Positions 40,984 to 58,280 of a stretch of DNA of 64,000 bases are shown here, piece by piece. The translations under genes were made by a program, and so were the position numbers. Position 1 is the first letter of the stretch, and each line of letters begins with the position of its first letter. The notes beneath the pieces were generated by a model, which was not told where the DNA came from, made no database searches, and saw only the letters and a program-made list of their open reading frames with translations. Source of the stretch: Candidatus Nanopelagicales bacterium (GTDB taxonomy: Bacteria; Actinomycetota; Actinomycetes; S36-B12; UBA5976); NCBI GenBank assembly GCA_030157865.1, contig JAOATY010000010.1, positions 1-64,000 on the forward strand, written 5' to 3'.

Positions 40984-41001
40984 TACGCCACGTCAGATCT
41001 A

Positions 41002-41093
41002 GATGCTGCCTTTAGTCCCTGGCCGTTGGAGAGCCTGGCACCGGGGAAGGTGCGCCAGGATCGAGCCAACGGCCAGAGGCCAAAGGCAGCATC
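41002..41093 (-). ncRNA. Large hairpin RNA in the mraZ-rsmH intergenic region, probable mraW RNA motif
   Basis: Perfect arms GATGCTGCCTTT (41002-41013)/AAAGGCAGCATC (41082-41093) and CTGGCCGTTGG (41019-41029)/CCAACGGCCAG (41066-41076); apical loop on the minus strand contains CUUCCCC. Confidence 0.75.
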
Positions 41094-41134
41094 ATTTGTT
41101 GTTACTGAATTAGTTGCTATGGAACGCGTTAAAT

Positions 41135-49351: not shown

Positions 49352-50452
49352 TTATAGCCCGTGGATCTGTGCAGCCTGCGCAATTCGGCCGGCCTGAACT
49401 TCAGTTAAAGCTTGATCTGGCAGGCGTTCATAGCCTGGACCAAATGGGTCATCGATCTCAGTCTTGACGCCAGACATGGCTTCCAAAACTGCCAATCCGC
49501 AATACGGAACGTAAGTCGGCGAGTAACCACCTTCGTGCGTCATCATTACTCGGCCTTCACAAACCTCATCGGCAACTGCAAGCAGCATTTCCGTTAACTG
49601 GCGATAGCCAGATGCCGTAACCAACATGCGACCAAGCGGATCAGAAGCACTGGCATCGAATCCGGATGCCACAACAATCACATCAGGATTAAATCTGCGA
49701 ATTGCTGGCAGTACTACTTTGTCTAAAGTTTCAACGTAGGCACCATTGCCAGAACCGGCTGGTAACGGAATGTTAATTACTGTTCCAGTTGCAGACTTGT
49801 CACCGACATCATCGATGAATCCGCTATCCGTTGGATACAGGTTGTCTTGATGAACAGATATGCAAAGCACGTTTGGATCTGAGTAGTAAATCTCTTGGGT
49901 GCCATTGCCGTGATGAACATCCCAGTCCACAACAACTACTCGCTGAACACCCATGGTTGCGCGAACATTTTCAATTGCAACGGCAGCGTTACCGAAAATG
50001 CAAAATCCCATGCCGGTGGATGGTCGAGCGTGGTGTCCAGGTGGGCGAACTAATGCATAGGCGTTATTCACTGTGCCATTCATTACTGCGCGCAAAGCTT
50101 CAATGGCTCCCCCGGCAGCAAGTAACGCAATGTCATATCCGCCATAACCAAATGGTGACTCGGTATCGCCAGCGTCGCCGCCCCTTGGGTTCAGGCTTTC
50201 GGCTTTAATGCGAGCTACGTGTTCAGGTGTATGAACTCGCAAGATGTCTTCTTCAGTTGCTGGGACTGCGGGAATTCGAACTAAGTCTTTAGTAAGTCCG
50301 GAGACTTCCAATAACGAAGCAAGTCGAACTTTAGTTTCGGCGCTTTCAAAGTGCTGGTACGGCTGAACTGTCGTGCTTGGGAATACGTGCCCAGCAAAAG
50401 TGCCAGTGTCGTGCCAGCCATAAAGTTCATTCCATACATACCCAGTTGTCAT
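49352..50452 (-). CDS. Class II HDAC-fold amidohydrolase (histone deacetylase/acetylpolyamine amidohydrolase family)
   Basis: LVRPPGHHARPSTGMGFCIFGNAAVA, VDWDVHHGNGTQEIYY, VVASGFDASASDPLG. Confidence 0.92.
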   Translation of the reverse strand: MTTGYVWNELYGWHDTGTFAGHVFPSTTVQPYQHFESAETKVRLASLLEVSGLTKDLVRIPAVPATEEDILRVHTPEHVARIKAESLNPRGGDAGDTESPFGYGGYDIALLAAGGAIEALRAVMNGTVNNAYALVRPPGHHARPSTGMGFCIFGNAAVAIENVRATMGVQRVVVVDWDVHHGNGTQEIYYSDPNVLCISVHQDNLYPTDSGFIDDVGDKSATGTVINIPLPAGSGNGAYVETLDKVVLPAIRRFNPDVIVVASGFDASASDPLGRMLVTASGYRQLTEMLLAVADEVCEGRVMMTHEGGYSPTYVPYCGLAVLEAMSGVKTEIDDPFGPGYERLPDQALTEVQAGRIAQAAQIHGL

Positions 50453-50495
50453 GCCTCTGACTTTACAACTCGGGCCAGAATTTAACTGTCGAATC

Positions 50496-51050
50496 CTATG
50501 CAAATCTTTCAAGCACATATTTAGTATCAACGACTGTGGCAAATTCACCATTTAAATTGGCGCCTGTCATGCGCATCACTTCATCAGCGGAAATAACTTT
50601 GCCATTTACATCCGTCATGTCATATGCCCGAGTTGCATCCAAAACAAAGGTGACTTCATAGCCAAGATTTCCTGCCATGCGCGCCGTTGTCTCGCAGCAA
50701 TGATTAGTTGTAATTCCACAGATCACCACATCGCGGTAATCATTCGCCTTTAACCATTCATGTAGGTCTGGTGTTCCATAAAAAGCAGAATTAACTGATT
50801 TAGAAATCAAGAGATCATGCTTACCTAGAACTCCCGATTGAAGCGCATTGCCAGGGCTATTTGGAGAAAGTTTTGAGTTTGGACTGACTGAATCATGGCG
50901 AACCAAAACAATAGGCGCTTCTTTTGTTCGCCATAAGTCAAGAAGTGACTTTATGTTTTCTTCACACTTTGGGTTCGCGCTATTTCCCCACGCAGGATCT
51001 AGGAATCCATCTTGGACATCGATCACAATTAGTACTGGCAACTGCTTCAT
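50496..51050 (-). CDS. Isochorismatase-family cysteine hydrolase
   Basis: VLIVIDVQDGFLDP, VICGITTNHCCETTARMAGNLGYEV; start at ATG 51050. Confidence 0.9.
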   Translation of the reverse strand: MKQLPVLIVIDVQDGFLDPAWGNSANPKCEENIKSLLDLWRTKEAPIVLVRHDSVSPNSKLSPNSPGNALQSGVLGKHDLLISKSVNSAFYGTPDLHEWLKANDYRDVVICGITTNHCCETTARMAGNLGYEVTFVLDATRAYDMTDVNGKVISADEVMRMTGANLNGEFATVVDTKYVLERFA

Positions 51051-51060
51051 GCCATTAACT

Positions 51061-52482
51061 TTAACTGTCGAATCCCATACCGAATCGATCAAGCGTGCGA
51101 AGCCAGATGTTTCGCTTACCTTGATTGCGATCGGCCTTATCGAGCGACCAGCGCGTGAAGTTAATTCCAGCTGACTTGAATGGCTCAGGCGGGAATGGGA
51201 TTGGCAAAGTGTTAACCATCTCAAGATTACGGCGATCAGTATCGCGATCTAGCAACTTATCGATGGACACTTGGGCACCGAACCGTGATGCCCCAACACC
51301 AAGTCCGGTGTAGCCAGCAACGTAAACAACTTTGTCATCCATCGCAGTTCCCCAGAAAGCGCTAAAGCGAGTGCAAGTATCGATCGCACCGCTCCAGGCA
51401 TACTCAAAGCGCAAACCTTCAAGCTGCGGGAACGTTGAGAAGAAGTGATCGGCTAATTTTGGCCAAGACTTTGTTGAATGTTCATGCTGCACACCAAAAC
51501 CACTGCGGAAATGATAAGTCGCGTCGTATCCACCCCAAAGAATTCGACCGTCTGCAGTTGGACGGTAGTAATGGAATTGATTACCGGTGTCGCTGACACC
51601 TTCATTGCCTGCCCAGCCAATGTCACGACGCTGTTGTTCGCTTAATGGTTCGGTAACGAGAACTGAATCGTAAACCGGAACGATCAAATACTTAAGGCGA
51701 CGAAGTAACGGTGGGAAGGCATTAGTTGCAAGTAAAACCTTTGGCGCCGTAACGCTTCCGAATTCTGTTTTTGCAGTGACTCGATCGCCGCGTTCGTCTA
51801 AGTCAACTACTTTGCTGTGTTCGTAAATGCGAACACCAAGTGAAAGCGCCACATCGCGAAGCCCCCAGGCCAAGCGAGCCGGATCACAAATCGCCACACT
51901 GTCAGGATCAAACAATGCGCCAAGGTAAGTCGGTGAATTCAAACGACGACGAGTTTCCGCTTGATCTAACCAAACCAGTTCTTCGCCATATGGTTTTGCC
52001 ACATCAACAAACTCTTGAAGTTCAGCGACTTGGTATTCCTCGGTAGCAACATCCATTTCGCCGACGCGCATCCAGTCACAATCAATCTTTCGATCGATTA
52101 CGAACTGTTCCATTTCATTTAAATTTTGTTGACCAAGTTGAGTCAGCTTCGCGATGTCATTTGGCCAGCGATCTAATCCATTGGAAAAACCATGAGTGAG
52201 TGATGCCGCTACGAAGCCGCCGTTTTGGCCGGAGGCCCCTCGCGCTACGGCATTGCCTTCAACTAAAACCACATCAAGATTTGGGTTGTGTTCTTTAGCT
52301 TCGATGGCCGCCCATAACCCGGTGAATCCTCCACCCACGATTAATAAGTCGGCGGTTAAGTTGCCAACAACACGTGAGGCATCATGTTCTGGCTCAACTT
52401 CGTCATCAAGCCAATAGGAGCCTTCCCAAACATCGGCCAGGGATGGCAAAACCTGCGGTGAAGGTGTGTGTGAAAAAACCAT
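51061..52482 (-). CDS. FAD-dependent amine oxidoreductase (DAO/PuuB-like)
   Basis: ADLLIVGGGFTGLWAAIEAKEHNP Rossmann motif, GNAVARGASGQNGGFV, VYVAGYTGLGVGAS. Confidence 0.9.
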   Translation of the reverse strand: MVFSHTPSPQVLPSLADVWEGSYWLDDEVEPEHDASRVVGNLTADLLIVGGGFTGLWAAIEAKEHNPNLDVVLVEGNAVARGASGQNGGFVAASLTHGFSNGLDRWPNDIAKLTQLGQQNLNEMEQFVIDRKIDCDWMRVGEMDVATEEYQVAELQEFVDVAKPYGEELVWLDQAETRRRLNSPTYLGALFDPDSVAICDPARLAWGLRDVALSLGVRIYEHSKVVDLDERGDRVTAKTEFGSVTAPKVLLATNAFPPLLRRLKYLIVPVYDSVLVTEPLSEQQRRDIGWAGNEGVSDTGNQFHYYRPTADGRILWGGYDATYHFRSGFGVQHEHSTKSWPKLADHFFSTFPQLEGLRFEYAWSGAIDTCTRFSAFWGTAMDDKVVYVAGYTGLGVGASRFGAQVSIDKLLDRDTDRRNLEMVNTLPIPFPPEPFKSAGINFTRWSLDKADRNQGKRNIWLRTLDRFGMGFDS

Positions 52483-52503
52483 TGCAAAAGTCCAAACGAT
52501 TGG

Positions 52504-52663
52504 GTGAGCGAGGGCTCACTGGTGATCAGATGTGTCTGGCAAAACTCGCCAGCATTGTTTTCTGTCGGTATTCGCATTTTTGCGAATCCGGATCCCACCA
52601 GTCCCTCTCTATATGCGCTCTAGGCCTTAAGTTCCTAGTGCCAATCGGCCACCTCTACAGGTG
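52504..52663 (-). ncRNA. Candidate structured 5' leader RNA (three-way junction)
   Basis: Hand-fold: P1 52591-52602/52518-52527, P2 52566-52590, P3 52536-52552, adjacent hairpin 52504-52519, upstream hairpins 52650-52663 and 52620-52638. Confidence 0.5.
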
Positions 52664-52679
52664 ATCCCCTTGCCCTTTC

Positions 52680-52708
52680 ATTCTAAGCGCAAGTGAATTT
52701 GATATCAG
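52680..52708 (-). promoter_or_regulatory. Putative promoter of the leader/FAD oxidoreductase operon
   Basis: Minus strand CTGATA-N17-TAGAAT. Confidence 0.5.
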
Positions 52709-52766: not shown

Positions 52767-54107
52767 TTAACCGTTAATGCGGATTAGCTTCTTGTTTAGG
52801 AATTCTTCGATACCTAAAGGACCAAGTTCGCGGCCAAAGCCGGAACGCTTAGTACCGCCGAATGGAAGTTCCGGAGCATCCATACCGACACCGTTGACGT
52901 AAACCATTCCGGTGTCTAGAGCATCAGCAACACGAAGCGCTTGCTTGTCGTCTGTTGTGAATAGGTATGAACCCAAACCAAACGGTGAATCGTTAGCGAT
53001 ACGAATTGCATCAGCTTCATCCTTAGCGCGATGAATCTGGGCAACTGGACCGAATAGTTCCTCGCGGAAGATTTCGTTATCAGTAGATACGTCGGTTAGA
53101 ACGCCGGCTGGGAAGAACGCACCGTTACGATCGCCAGCGCTAACCAACTTCGCACCCTGCTTAACTGCGCGATTAACTTGCTCTTCAAGGATTTCGGCAG
53201 CGCGAACTGAGCTAAGTGGGCTGGAGATTTCAGCATCCATCATTGCAGTGGTGAACTTATCCAAGAATTCGTCATAAAGACTGTCTATGACGACCATGCG
53301 CTTTGCAGCGTTGCATGCCTGACCAGTGTTATCGATACGTGCAAAGACTGCTGATTCAACAACAGCATCCATGTCGTTTGTGCTCAACAGAATAAATGCA
53401 TCGGAACCACCAAGTTCGAGTACGCACTTCTTTAGGTGACGTCCTGCAATTTCTGCAACAGCAGCGCCAGCGCGTTCGGAGCCAGTTAGAGAAACACCAC
53501 GAACCGCAGGATGCGGGATCATGTCTGCAATTTGTTCATTCGATGCAAAGAGATTTACATAAACACCTTCAGGTGCGCCAGCGTCTGCAAAAATCTTGGC
53601 AATTGCAAGTGCAGACTCAGGGCACTGTGGAGCGTGCTTCAAAATTACGGTGTTACCAGCAACTAAGTTTGGTCCGGCAAAACGAGCGACCTGGTAAGCC
53701 GGGAAGTTCCACGGCATGATGCCAAGCAATGCGCCAACAGATGACTTGCGGATTACTGCAGAGCCTTCGCCGCCTGAAAGTTCAATTGGCATGTCAGCAA
53801 GCAGCGCAGCTGCGTTGTCTGCGTAGTACTGGTAGATGAATCCGGAGAATTCAACTTCGCCTGCAGCATCGGCTAATGGCTTTCCCATTTCGCGATTGAT
53901 GATCGCAGCTAGTTCATCCTGGCGATCAATATGAAGTTGGCCAATGCGGTGAACAATTGCAGCTCGCTCGGCAACTGGAACTTTGCTCCAAGCCTTATGG
54001 GCGTTGTCTGCGGCGACAATTGCTTCGTTGCACTGGGCATCGGTAGCGGTAGCGAATTCTTGTTCAACTACGCCGGTTGCCGGGTTAAGAACTTGGTATT
54101 GGCTCAT
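52767..54107 (-). CDS. NAD(P)-dependent aldehyde dehydrogenase, succinate-semialdehyde dehydrogenase-like
   Basis: PWNFPAYQVARFAGPNLVAGN, LELGGSDAFI, NTGQACNAAKR, EELFGPVAQI. Confidence 0.93.
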   Translation of the reverse strand: MSQYQVLNPATGVVEQEFATATDAQCNEAIVAADNAHKAWSKVPVAERAAIVHRIGQLHIDRQDELAAIINREMGKPLADAAGEVEFSGFIYQYYADNAAALLADMPIELSGGEGSAVIRKSSVGALLGIMPWNFPAYQVARFAGPNLVAGNTVILKHAPQCPESALAIAKIFADAGAPEGVYVNLFASNEQIADMIPHPAVRGVSLTGSERAGAAVAEIAGRHLKKCVLELGGSDAFILLSTNDMDAVVESAVFARIDNTGQACNAAKRMVVIDSLYDEFLDKFTTAMMDAEISSPLSSVRAAEILEEQVNRAVKQGAKLVSAGDRNGAFFPAGVLTDVSTDNEIFREELFGPVAQIHRAKDEADAIRIANDSPFGLGSYLFTTDDKQALRVADALDTGMVYVNGVGMDAPELPFGGTKRSGFGRELGPLGIEEFLNKKLIRING

Positions 54108-54224: not shown

Positions 54225-54331
54225 GCGATTTCTTGACCAAAATCTCTCAAAACCTGCGAAATTCGCATCAATTTTCGGGAAATCCTGCGAAATCGCTTGT
54301 TTTTCCTACGAAAACCCTTGAAACTAGATAC

Positions 54332-54790
54332 ATGTCTAAAGTTGCCGTGCTCGACGATGTTTCAAAAGCAATCATTGAGCAACTTCAGCAAGACGGTCGA
54401 CGTCCTTACGCCACTATCGGTAAGGCAGTTGGGCTATCTGAAGCTGCAGTACGTCAGCGGGTTAGCAAACTTCTGGAAACCGGAGTTATGCAGATCGTTG
54501 CCGTTACGGATCCACTTCAAGTTGGTTTTAATCGCGAAGCGATGATCGGCATCGAAGTAGATGGAGACATGGAAGCCGTCGCCGACGTGCTTTCTCAAAT
54601 GGATGAGATCAGCTACATCATCCTGACAGCAGGCAGCTTCGACATCATCCTTGAAGTTGTTTGTGAAGACGACGAAGCACTTCTTGAAGTGATCAATCGT
54701 AAGATCCGTGCGATTCCCGGGGTCCGCCGCACGGAAACATTCATGTATTTGAAACTGCGCAAGCAGAGTTATACATGGGGAACCCGCTAA
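54332..54790 (+). CDS. Lrp/AsnC-family transcriptional regulator
   Basis: LDDVSKAIIEQLQQDGRRPYATIGKAVGLSEAAVRQRVSKLLETGVMQIVAV; start MSKVAVLDDV at ATG 54332. Confidence 0.93.
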   Translation: MSKVAVLDDVSKAIIEQLQQDGRRPYATIGKAVGLSEAAVRQRVSKLLETGVMQIVAVTDPLQVGFNREAMIGIEVDGDMEAVADVLSQMDEISYIILTAGSFDIILEVVCEDDEALLEVINRKIRAIPGVRRTETFMYLKLRKQSYTWGTR

Positions 54791-56897: not shown

Positions 56898-58280
56898 ATG
56901 ACTGACTATCGATCAAAGTCTTTATGGTGGAATACCTTGCCAGAAGAGTTGGCTACTTCCTCTCGCTATGCACTGCATTCTGACATCGATGTTGACGTAG
57001 CAATTGTTGGCGCTGGTTACACCGGACTTTGGACGGCTTACTACTTACAACAGCGCGACCCAAATCTAAACATTGCAATCATTGATGCAGAAGTTGCAGG
57101 TTATGGAGCTTCTGGTCGTAACGGTGGTTGGTGTTCGGCTTACTTCCCTACCGAGATCGACAAACTAGGTCGCATCCATGGCCGCGAATCAGCTCGCGCT
57201 ATGCAAGATGCCATGCATGACACCGTGACTGAAATTGAAAATGTTGTAAAGGCTGAAGGCATTGATTGCGAATGGCAGCGCGGTGGAACAATTTCATTTG
57301 CTCGCACACCTTTGCAATGGCAACGAGCCCAGGATTACATTCACCATTGGGAGCAATGGGGATACGGCGCTGAGCATTACGCATTGTTAAGTGCAGGCGA
57401 AGCCAAAGAGCGCGCCCAAGCAACAAATCTCTTCGGCGCAACTTACACACCGCACGTCGCTGCAATCAATCCAGCAAAGTTAGTTCGCTCACTTGCAAAC
57501 GTAGTTGAAAAACGTGGCGCAACAATTTATGAACACACAGCGGCAACCAAGATTGAACCTGGCAAGGTAACGACTGATGGTGGCGTTATCAATGCTCGCT
57601 ATGTAGTTCGAGCAACTGAGGGTTACACCAAGTCACTTGAAGGCCAAAAGCGAAAGATTGTTCCGATCTATTCCTTGATGATGGCAACTGAACCATTGAG
57701 TGCAGAAGTTTGGGATCAGATTGGTTTGGCGCAGCGCGAAACTTTTGGTGACTTTAGAAATCTAATCATTTACGGTCAGCGCACAGCAGATAATCGTTTT
57801 GCATTTGGTGGACGTGGTGCTCCGTATCACTTTGGCTCATCGATTAAAGATGAGTACGACCAACACAGCGAAGTTCATCCTGCGCTACTAGGCGTACTTG
57901 CTGAACTCTTCCCTGTTGTTGCTGGCGCAAAGGTGACACACACATGGGGTGGTCCACTTGGTGTGGCCCGTGACTGGATGGCATCAGCTGGTATCGATCG
58001 CAAAACGGGTCTTGCTTGGGCTGGAGGCTACGTTGGCGATGGCGTTGGAACCACAAACCTTTCTGGGCGAACCCTTGCCGACTTGATCACAAACCAAGAG
58101 ACAGCGTTGACCAAACTTCCTTGGGTCAATCACAAGTCCCCTAACTGGGAAGTTGAACCACTTCGGTGGATTGGTGCCAACGCTGGACTTCAAATCATGT
58201 CTCGGGCCGATCACGCAGAAGACAAAACTGGTAAACCCTCAAAACTTGCGGGCGTAGTTTCAAAACTCTTAGGACAGTAA
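56898..58280 (+). CDS. FAD-dependent amine oxidoreductase (PuuB-like)
   Basis: VDVAIVGAGYTGLWTAYYLQQRDPNLNIAIIDAEVAGYGASGRNGGWCSAYFP, AGGYVGDGVGTTNLSGRTLADL. Confidence 0.92.
   Translation: MTDYRSKSLWWNTLPEELATSSRYALHSDIDVDVAIVGAGYTGLWTAYYLQQRDPNLNIAIIDAEVAGYGASGRNGGWCSAYFPTEIDKLGRIHGRESARAMQDAMHDTVTEIENVVKAEGIDCEWQRGGTISFARTPLQWQRAQDYIHHWEQWGYGAEHYALLSAGEAKERAQATNLFGATYTPHVAAINPAKLVRSLANVVEKRGATIYEHTAATKIEPGKVTTDGGVINARYVVRATEGYTKSLEGQKRKIVPIYSLMMATEPLSAEVWDQIGLAQRETFGDFRNLIIYGQRTADNRFAFGGRGAPYHFGSSIKDEYDQHSEVHPALLGVLAELFPVVAGAKVTHTWGGPLGVARDWMASAGIDRKTGLAWAGGYVGDGVGTTNLSGRTLADLITNQETALTKLPWVNHKSPNWEVEPLRWIGANAGLQIMSRADHAEDKTGKPSKLAGVVSKLLGQ

Follow-up and report, generated by a model that had tools for sequence, protein, structure and literature searches.

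A structured leader RNA conserved upstream of a putative polyamine-breakdown operon in acI-type freshwater actinobacteria and their order

Polyamines are long-expected ligands of riboswitches, of which one convincing class is known so far and more have been predicted (PMC10853860). The spermidine riboswitch is a variant of the SAM-I aptamer and acts as a transcription-terminating OFF switch of biosynthetic genes (PMC10853860). The potE motif is restricted to Veillonella, shows weak covariation, and lies about 200 nt from its gene, while the odc1 motif acts in combination with a pseudoknot and a short ORF (PMC8632094). The leader RNA analysed here was found in a 64,000-nt stretch of DNA (hereafter the window) from a Candidatus Nanopelagicales bacterium. 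At the gathering thresholds of Rfam 15, neither this leader nor its relatives in the genus or the order gave a match, and the SAM family was not matched by the leader or by the order-wide relatives even at permissive thresholds. An earlier note on this DNA, made from the letters alone, had assigned the leader to no known riboswitch class, and the Rfam scan agrees with it. As a positive control, the scan recovered mraW RNA (RF01746) at 40993–41098 on the minus strand with 73.3 bits, the only gathering-level match in the window. A search of the open-access literature, with subscription journals and preprints outside its scope, retrieved neither a report of a riboswitch in Nanopelagicales nor a paper that fits the gene association of the motif described below.

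The leader occupies the gap between an aldehyde-dehydrogenase gene (52767–54107) and the ATG at 52482 on the minus strand, the start codon downstream of the leader (Table 1). The elements listed in the earlier note, namely the promoter, P1, P2, P3, the hairpin GUGAGC-ccuc-GCUCAC, the pairing CCAA-ucgu-UUGG, and the ATG, were all present where it had placed them, and the two more hairpins it had seen nearer the 5′-end (52672–52642 and 52641–52617) proved to be integral, being the covariation-supported parts of the genus leader. It had missed the conserved outer GGG/CCC stem and the core proper, in which a near-invariant strand of 16 nt is combined with P2; this core is common to much of the order and is represented in the window by the strand GGGACUGGUGGGA and hairpin P2. 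The fold check it had suggested gave −70.4 kcal/mol for the 198-nt leader compared with −55.7 (SD 4.5) for dinucleotide shuffles (z = −3.3), and one of the 200 shuffles folded as well. The structured leader RNA that had been proposed is supported, and no upstream reading frame is conserved. The upstream aldehyde-dehydrogenase gene ends in a hairpin followed by TTTTT (52751–52722), whereas no U-tract follows the terminal hairpin of the leader, which argues against attenuation at this site.

Table 1. Positions of the leader elements and operon genes in the window
Feature	Position	Strand	Description or evidence
Predicted promoter	52680–52708	minus	CTGATA (52708–52703), 17 nt, TAGAAT (52685–52680); RNA start expected at ~52674
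Whole leader RNA, ~190 nt, genus-specific form	52483–52674	minus	Covariance model R1, folding z-score
Hairpin A	52642–52672	minus	CAA-GG-GG / CC-GA-UUG; invariant 2×2 internal loop, variable apical stem
Hairpin B	52617–52641	minus	Pair changes on both sides and tree-aware test
Conserved strand	52593–52608	minus	GGGACTGGTGGGA at 52605–52593 plus bases just before
P2 hairpin, directly 3′ of conserved strand	52566–52590	minus	Covaries; common to order
P3	52527–52564	minus	Basal stem CAGA/UCUG, internal loop, apical hairpin GCUGGC/GCCAG
P1 3′ strand CACCAGU	52518–52524	minus	Partner 52602–52596
Terminal hairpin GUGAGC/GCUCAC, without U-tract	52504–52519	minus	Stem conserved, loop variable
Outer stem GGG (52605–52603) / CCC (52504–52502)	52502–52605	minus	RNAalifold: paired in 15–17 of 17 sequences
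FAD-dependent oxidoreductase (DAO family), 473 aa, first operon gene	51061–52482	minus	Pfam PF01266, E = 1.5e-60
Isochorismatase-family hydrolase	50496–51134	minus	Pfam PF00857
Histone-deacetylase-family protein	49352–50473	minus	Pfam PF00850

The Pfam assignments of the three operon genes agree with the content given in the earlier note (FAD oxidoreductase, isochorismatase, and HDAC), and the operon shows polyamine-pathway features; the histone-deacetylase-family protein is possibly an acetylpolyamine deacetylase. The operon is flanked in the window by genes for an aldehyde dehydrogenase, an AsnC/Lrp-type regulator (54308–54790), a class III aminotransferase, and a second FAD oxidoreductase. 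This second enzyme of the same family (56898–58280, plus strand) is about 30% identical, lies in the divergent cluster, and has no motif copy. In L035, the one relative in which the polyamine-transporter context was read, the gene order is solute-binding protein, PotA-, PotB-, and PotC-like genes, motif, oxidoreductase, agmatinase, and a carboxynorspermidine-synthase-like gene, where the agmatinase assignment exceeds its curated cut-off. The operon likely serves polyamine breakdown.

The genus of the window is acI-type, and its public relatives are freshwater actinobacterial MAGs; many of the genomes compared are incomplete MAGs. A covariance model (R1) built from 17 relatives found exactly one copy per genome in 20 of the 23 genus genomes, always before the same FAD-oxidoreductase gene, and in the other three the assembled start of the gene, or the gene itself, is missing. 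All 20 members with an assembled gene start carry the leader upstream of it, and a single fold plan with five hairpins accommodates all 20 leaders in the order hairpin A, hairpin B, GGG, P1, P2, P3, P1′, terminal hairpin, and CCC. Hairpin A is missing in G005 and G009, which have a different hairpin in its place. P3 folds in every leader, with a basal stem whose position differs by clade, and the core of the conserved strand, GGGACTGGTGGGA, is invariant in the genus. The promoter proposed earlier was upheld in part: most genus members have a −10-like TANNAT in one shared column range of the alignment, but the −35 element is not conserved across it. The 2×2 internal loop of hairpin A (GG/GA), located between CAA/UUG and GG/CC, is invariant in every genus member having this hairpin and may by itself serve for recognition.

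Standard pairs were formed in 89.5% of the cells of the genus alignment, as opposed to at most 42% when the partners were slid, and 18 of the 49 pairs changed on both sides, including four in hairpin A and six of the seven in hairpin B. The counts for P2 and P3 are lowered because this alignment does not keep the two hairpins in register from clade to clade. The tree-aware test, a G-test with APC in which a FastTree tree served to replay the substitutions (a self-written substitute for R-scape), gave three significant pairs in the genus, one in hairpin A and two in hairpin B, and no significant pair outside the structure. In 36 order-wide sequences, five of the six P2 pairs changed on both sides, the P2 covariation score was 0.53 (0.28 when shuffled, at most 0.16 when slid), and two pairs were significant in the tree-aware test. 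The covariation in homologues by which the earlier note wished its fold to be checked, and which is expected of a structured cis-regulatory RNA, was thus detected for P2 across the order and for hairpins A and B in the genus, but for P1 neither the genus alignment nor the tree-aware test provided it. The 3′ strand of P1 is invariant in 17 of the 19 distinct genus sequences and broken in two species; since the P1 sequence does not vary apart from these breaks, covariation is uninformative on P1 and on the three-way junction. The proposed junction folds in most genus members, but its P1 is without covariation and the strand has other partners outside the genus; likewise, P1 holds for 52602–52596 with 52524–52518, but its GAUC/GAUC extension is not conserved and is partly used by the basal stem of P3. 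Taken together, the alignments indicate that the leader is conserved as an RNA and is not merely stable.

The order-wide consensus of the conserved strand is GAAGGGAYTGGTGGGA, and the ancestral core can be written as the near-invariant 16-nt GAAGGGAYUGGUGGGA with a hairpin after it. A search for AAGGGAYTGGTGGGA matched 57 of 166 order genomes, once per genome where found, compared with two for the reversed control. Among the 43 exact matches outside the genus, 41 lie directly upstream of the orthologous oxidoreductase (~40–58% protein identity); one of the other two is at a contig end, and one (L154), with the exact motif but no orthologue at the locus, was counted as chance. By their upstream regions, 40 further order orthologues or paralogues fall into two distinct groups: five have the motif with a single mismatch, while the rest have at least five differences, like shuffled sequence. 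Several motif-less orthologues closely follow a transporter permease gene. In total, 66 leaders were collected from three families and 14 genera including that of the window, 46 of them outside this genus. The motif precedes the start codon by mostly 62–72 nt (median 68 nt), and its position before one gene is conserved. As the core motif is found order-wide and the full leader in the window's genus alone, the latter is a genus-specific elaboration of the order-wide motif.

Scans of 395 and 163 class genomes and of 397 phylum genomes revealed no further motif before an orthologue, and among 52 non-genus loci with upstream sequence the motif was present only in L035 and L082, both of which were also in the order scan. 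R1 matches in two distant class members (L139 and L140) were treated as chance as they lack the conserved strand; at 1501–1659 in both, close to a gene for a serine/threonine kinase, the match is weak, is limited to hairpin A, and is probably fortuitous. The R2 matches elsewhere in the phylum resemble coding DNA and none lies upstream of an orthologue, and the pattern without its AA prefix was too unspecific class-wide, the reversed control also matching often. Second, more distant oxidoreductase copies (L264, L265, and L266; 45–49% identity to the window protein) have no motif. Since such copies lack it in several order genomes, the motif marks one orthologue group. In a sister genus of the same family (L251, L252, and L253), a different shared block, TTAGTTAGGGGTGAGA.CCGGACGCA...GGCCTAGTTGCCGTTGGCGGTCCG, precedes the orthologous gene; it has neither an Rfam match nor the motif and is possibly a second leader RNA.

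In one genus, the partner of the conserved strand is UUUCCGAUGGUC, immediately 3′ of P2; in another, the GUGGG of the strand pairs with a CCC-rich sequence beside the start codon, enclosing two hairpins; and the window's genus uses the strand for P1. Because the partner changes between clades while the strand sequence stays, the strand itself appears to be what is recognised. Candidate pairings that would mask the Shine–Dalgarno-to-start stretch are clade-specific, GCAAGGG with CUUUUGC or CCCUUG in part of the window's genus and GUGGGA with UCCCAU in some other genera, and no universal one is among them. The match of the 5′-end GCAAGGG to the stretch just before the start codon had p ≤ 0.01 in G000, G015, G016, and G020, but not in the remaining genus members. 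As a general device, masking of the ribosome-binding region through pairing with the conserved strand came out weak (p < 0.05 at five of 39 loci, median p 0.34). Of the two switching devices suggested earlier, CCAA/UUGG, which was proposed to mask the Shine–Dalgarno sequence, is absent in several relatives, and the expression platform of P1 and the terminal hairpin is not supported, the competing GGUGGG/CUCACC state being about 5–13 kcal/mol worse. A helix between the P2 loop and the GAYU segment of the conserved strand was discarded, since the third position does not covary (alignment inspected by eye), and the predicted folds contain no G-quadruplex.

We consider it very probable that the leader is a structured cis-regulatory RNA with a previously unreported motif, and control at translation is favoured to a lesser degree; direct sensing of a metabolite falls a little short of an even prospect. 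The ancestral core consists of the conserved strand and the covarying hairpin, with an almost constant spacing from the start codon, and the window's genus has added two 5′ hairpins, P3, P1, and the terminal hairpin to it. In the mechanism proposed, the invariant strand would be the recognition element, a small molecule of polyamine breakdown would bind to it, and binding would change the access to the ribosome-binding region. The chances seem balanced that the leader controls the FAD amine oxidase and its operon, most likely at translation, through such binding by the invariant strand. The universal core, one strand and one hairpin, is small for a metabolite aptamer.

The main rival, to which we assign about a quarter of the weight, is that no metabolite binds directly and that the invariant strand, presented by P2, is instead bound by a trans-acting small RNA or a regulatory protein. 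A near-invariant short single strand beside a hairpin of free sequence is typical of such sites, its partner within the RNA differs between clades, and there is a single site per genome; however, the genus leader has a large extra conserved structure, and the pattern scan of both strands gave one exact match per motif genome, namely the leader, which means that these genomes encode no perfect complement at another site. It is unlikely that the 16-nt block is a DNA operator of a transcription factor just downstream of the promoter, with the hairpin being incidental. The extreme sequence conservation at one gene and the nearby AsnC/Lrp-type regulator gene (54308–54790) would fit an operator, but the block is not palindromic, the adjoining hairpin shows compensatory changes, the distance to the start codon is tightly kept (62–72 nt at most loci) while the spacing between the block and −10-like sites is scattered, and the block is embedded in about 190 nt of covarying structure in the window's genus. 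We rate just as low the reading of the leader as a constitutive structured 5′ UTR, one that determines how stable the mRNA is or how much basal translation occurs and senses nothing. In its favour, no universal switch helix could be demonstrated, but the near-invariance of an unpaired strand over three families exceeds what stability requires, and the motif is absent from orthologues closely following a transporter gene.

T-box riboswitches carry a UGGN bulge, of which the invariant UGGU beside GGG and a hairpin is reminiscent. It is nevertheless very improbable that this UGGU pairs with the tRNA 3′-end (ACCA) in a T-box-like element, as Rfam gave no T-box match, the gene is neither an aminoacyl-tRNA synthetase nor an amino-acid transporter, and outside the genus only about 10–20 nt seem to precede the motif on the RNA, judging from the −10-like positions, which is too short for a Stem I with specifier. 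Control by a leader peptide, through attenuation or translation, is the least credible reading, for the short frame from ATGCTG in the P3 region of some genus members loses its start codon in G004, G012, and G019 and is shifted in G006 and G007, reading frames across the conserved strand have neither start nor end in common among the order-wide loci, and the sequence comparison, showing no conserved upstream ORF, refutes it.

The most specific form of the metabolite-sensing proposal, which we put forward tentatively and hold to be possible rather than probable, is a new riboswitch class within the order to which the acI-type freshwater actinobacteria belong, in which GAAGGGAYUGGUGGGA and its hairpin would sense a polyamine or a breakdown product and switch on the amine-oxidase operon, the window's genus having an elaborated version with a junction. 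A cis-regulatory RNA tied to an amine-oxidase gene would show how abundant, streamlined freshwater actinobacteria with few protein regulators control the use of dissolved amines. The order-wide core is a compact construct (~70 nt) with natural variants, suited to a direct binding test.

Among the known systems, the T-box riboswitch (RF00230) shares with the window leader a GGG...UGG strand beside a hairpin, but the leader has no Stem I or specifier and no Rfam match, and its gene class is unrelated. The mraW RNA (RF01746) is likewise an actinobacterial cis-regulatory leader, although of unrelated sequence and gene. The potE and odc1 motifs (PMC8632094) are also candidate RNAs before polyamine genes and come from comparative genomics, but they have other gene partners, a distinction drawn from their descriptions. 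Like the spermidine riboswitch (PMC10853860), the window leader is a leader RNA linked to polyamine-pathway genes; unlike it, the leader has no SAM-I match and no terminator at its terminal hairpin, and the gene downstream is catabolic.
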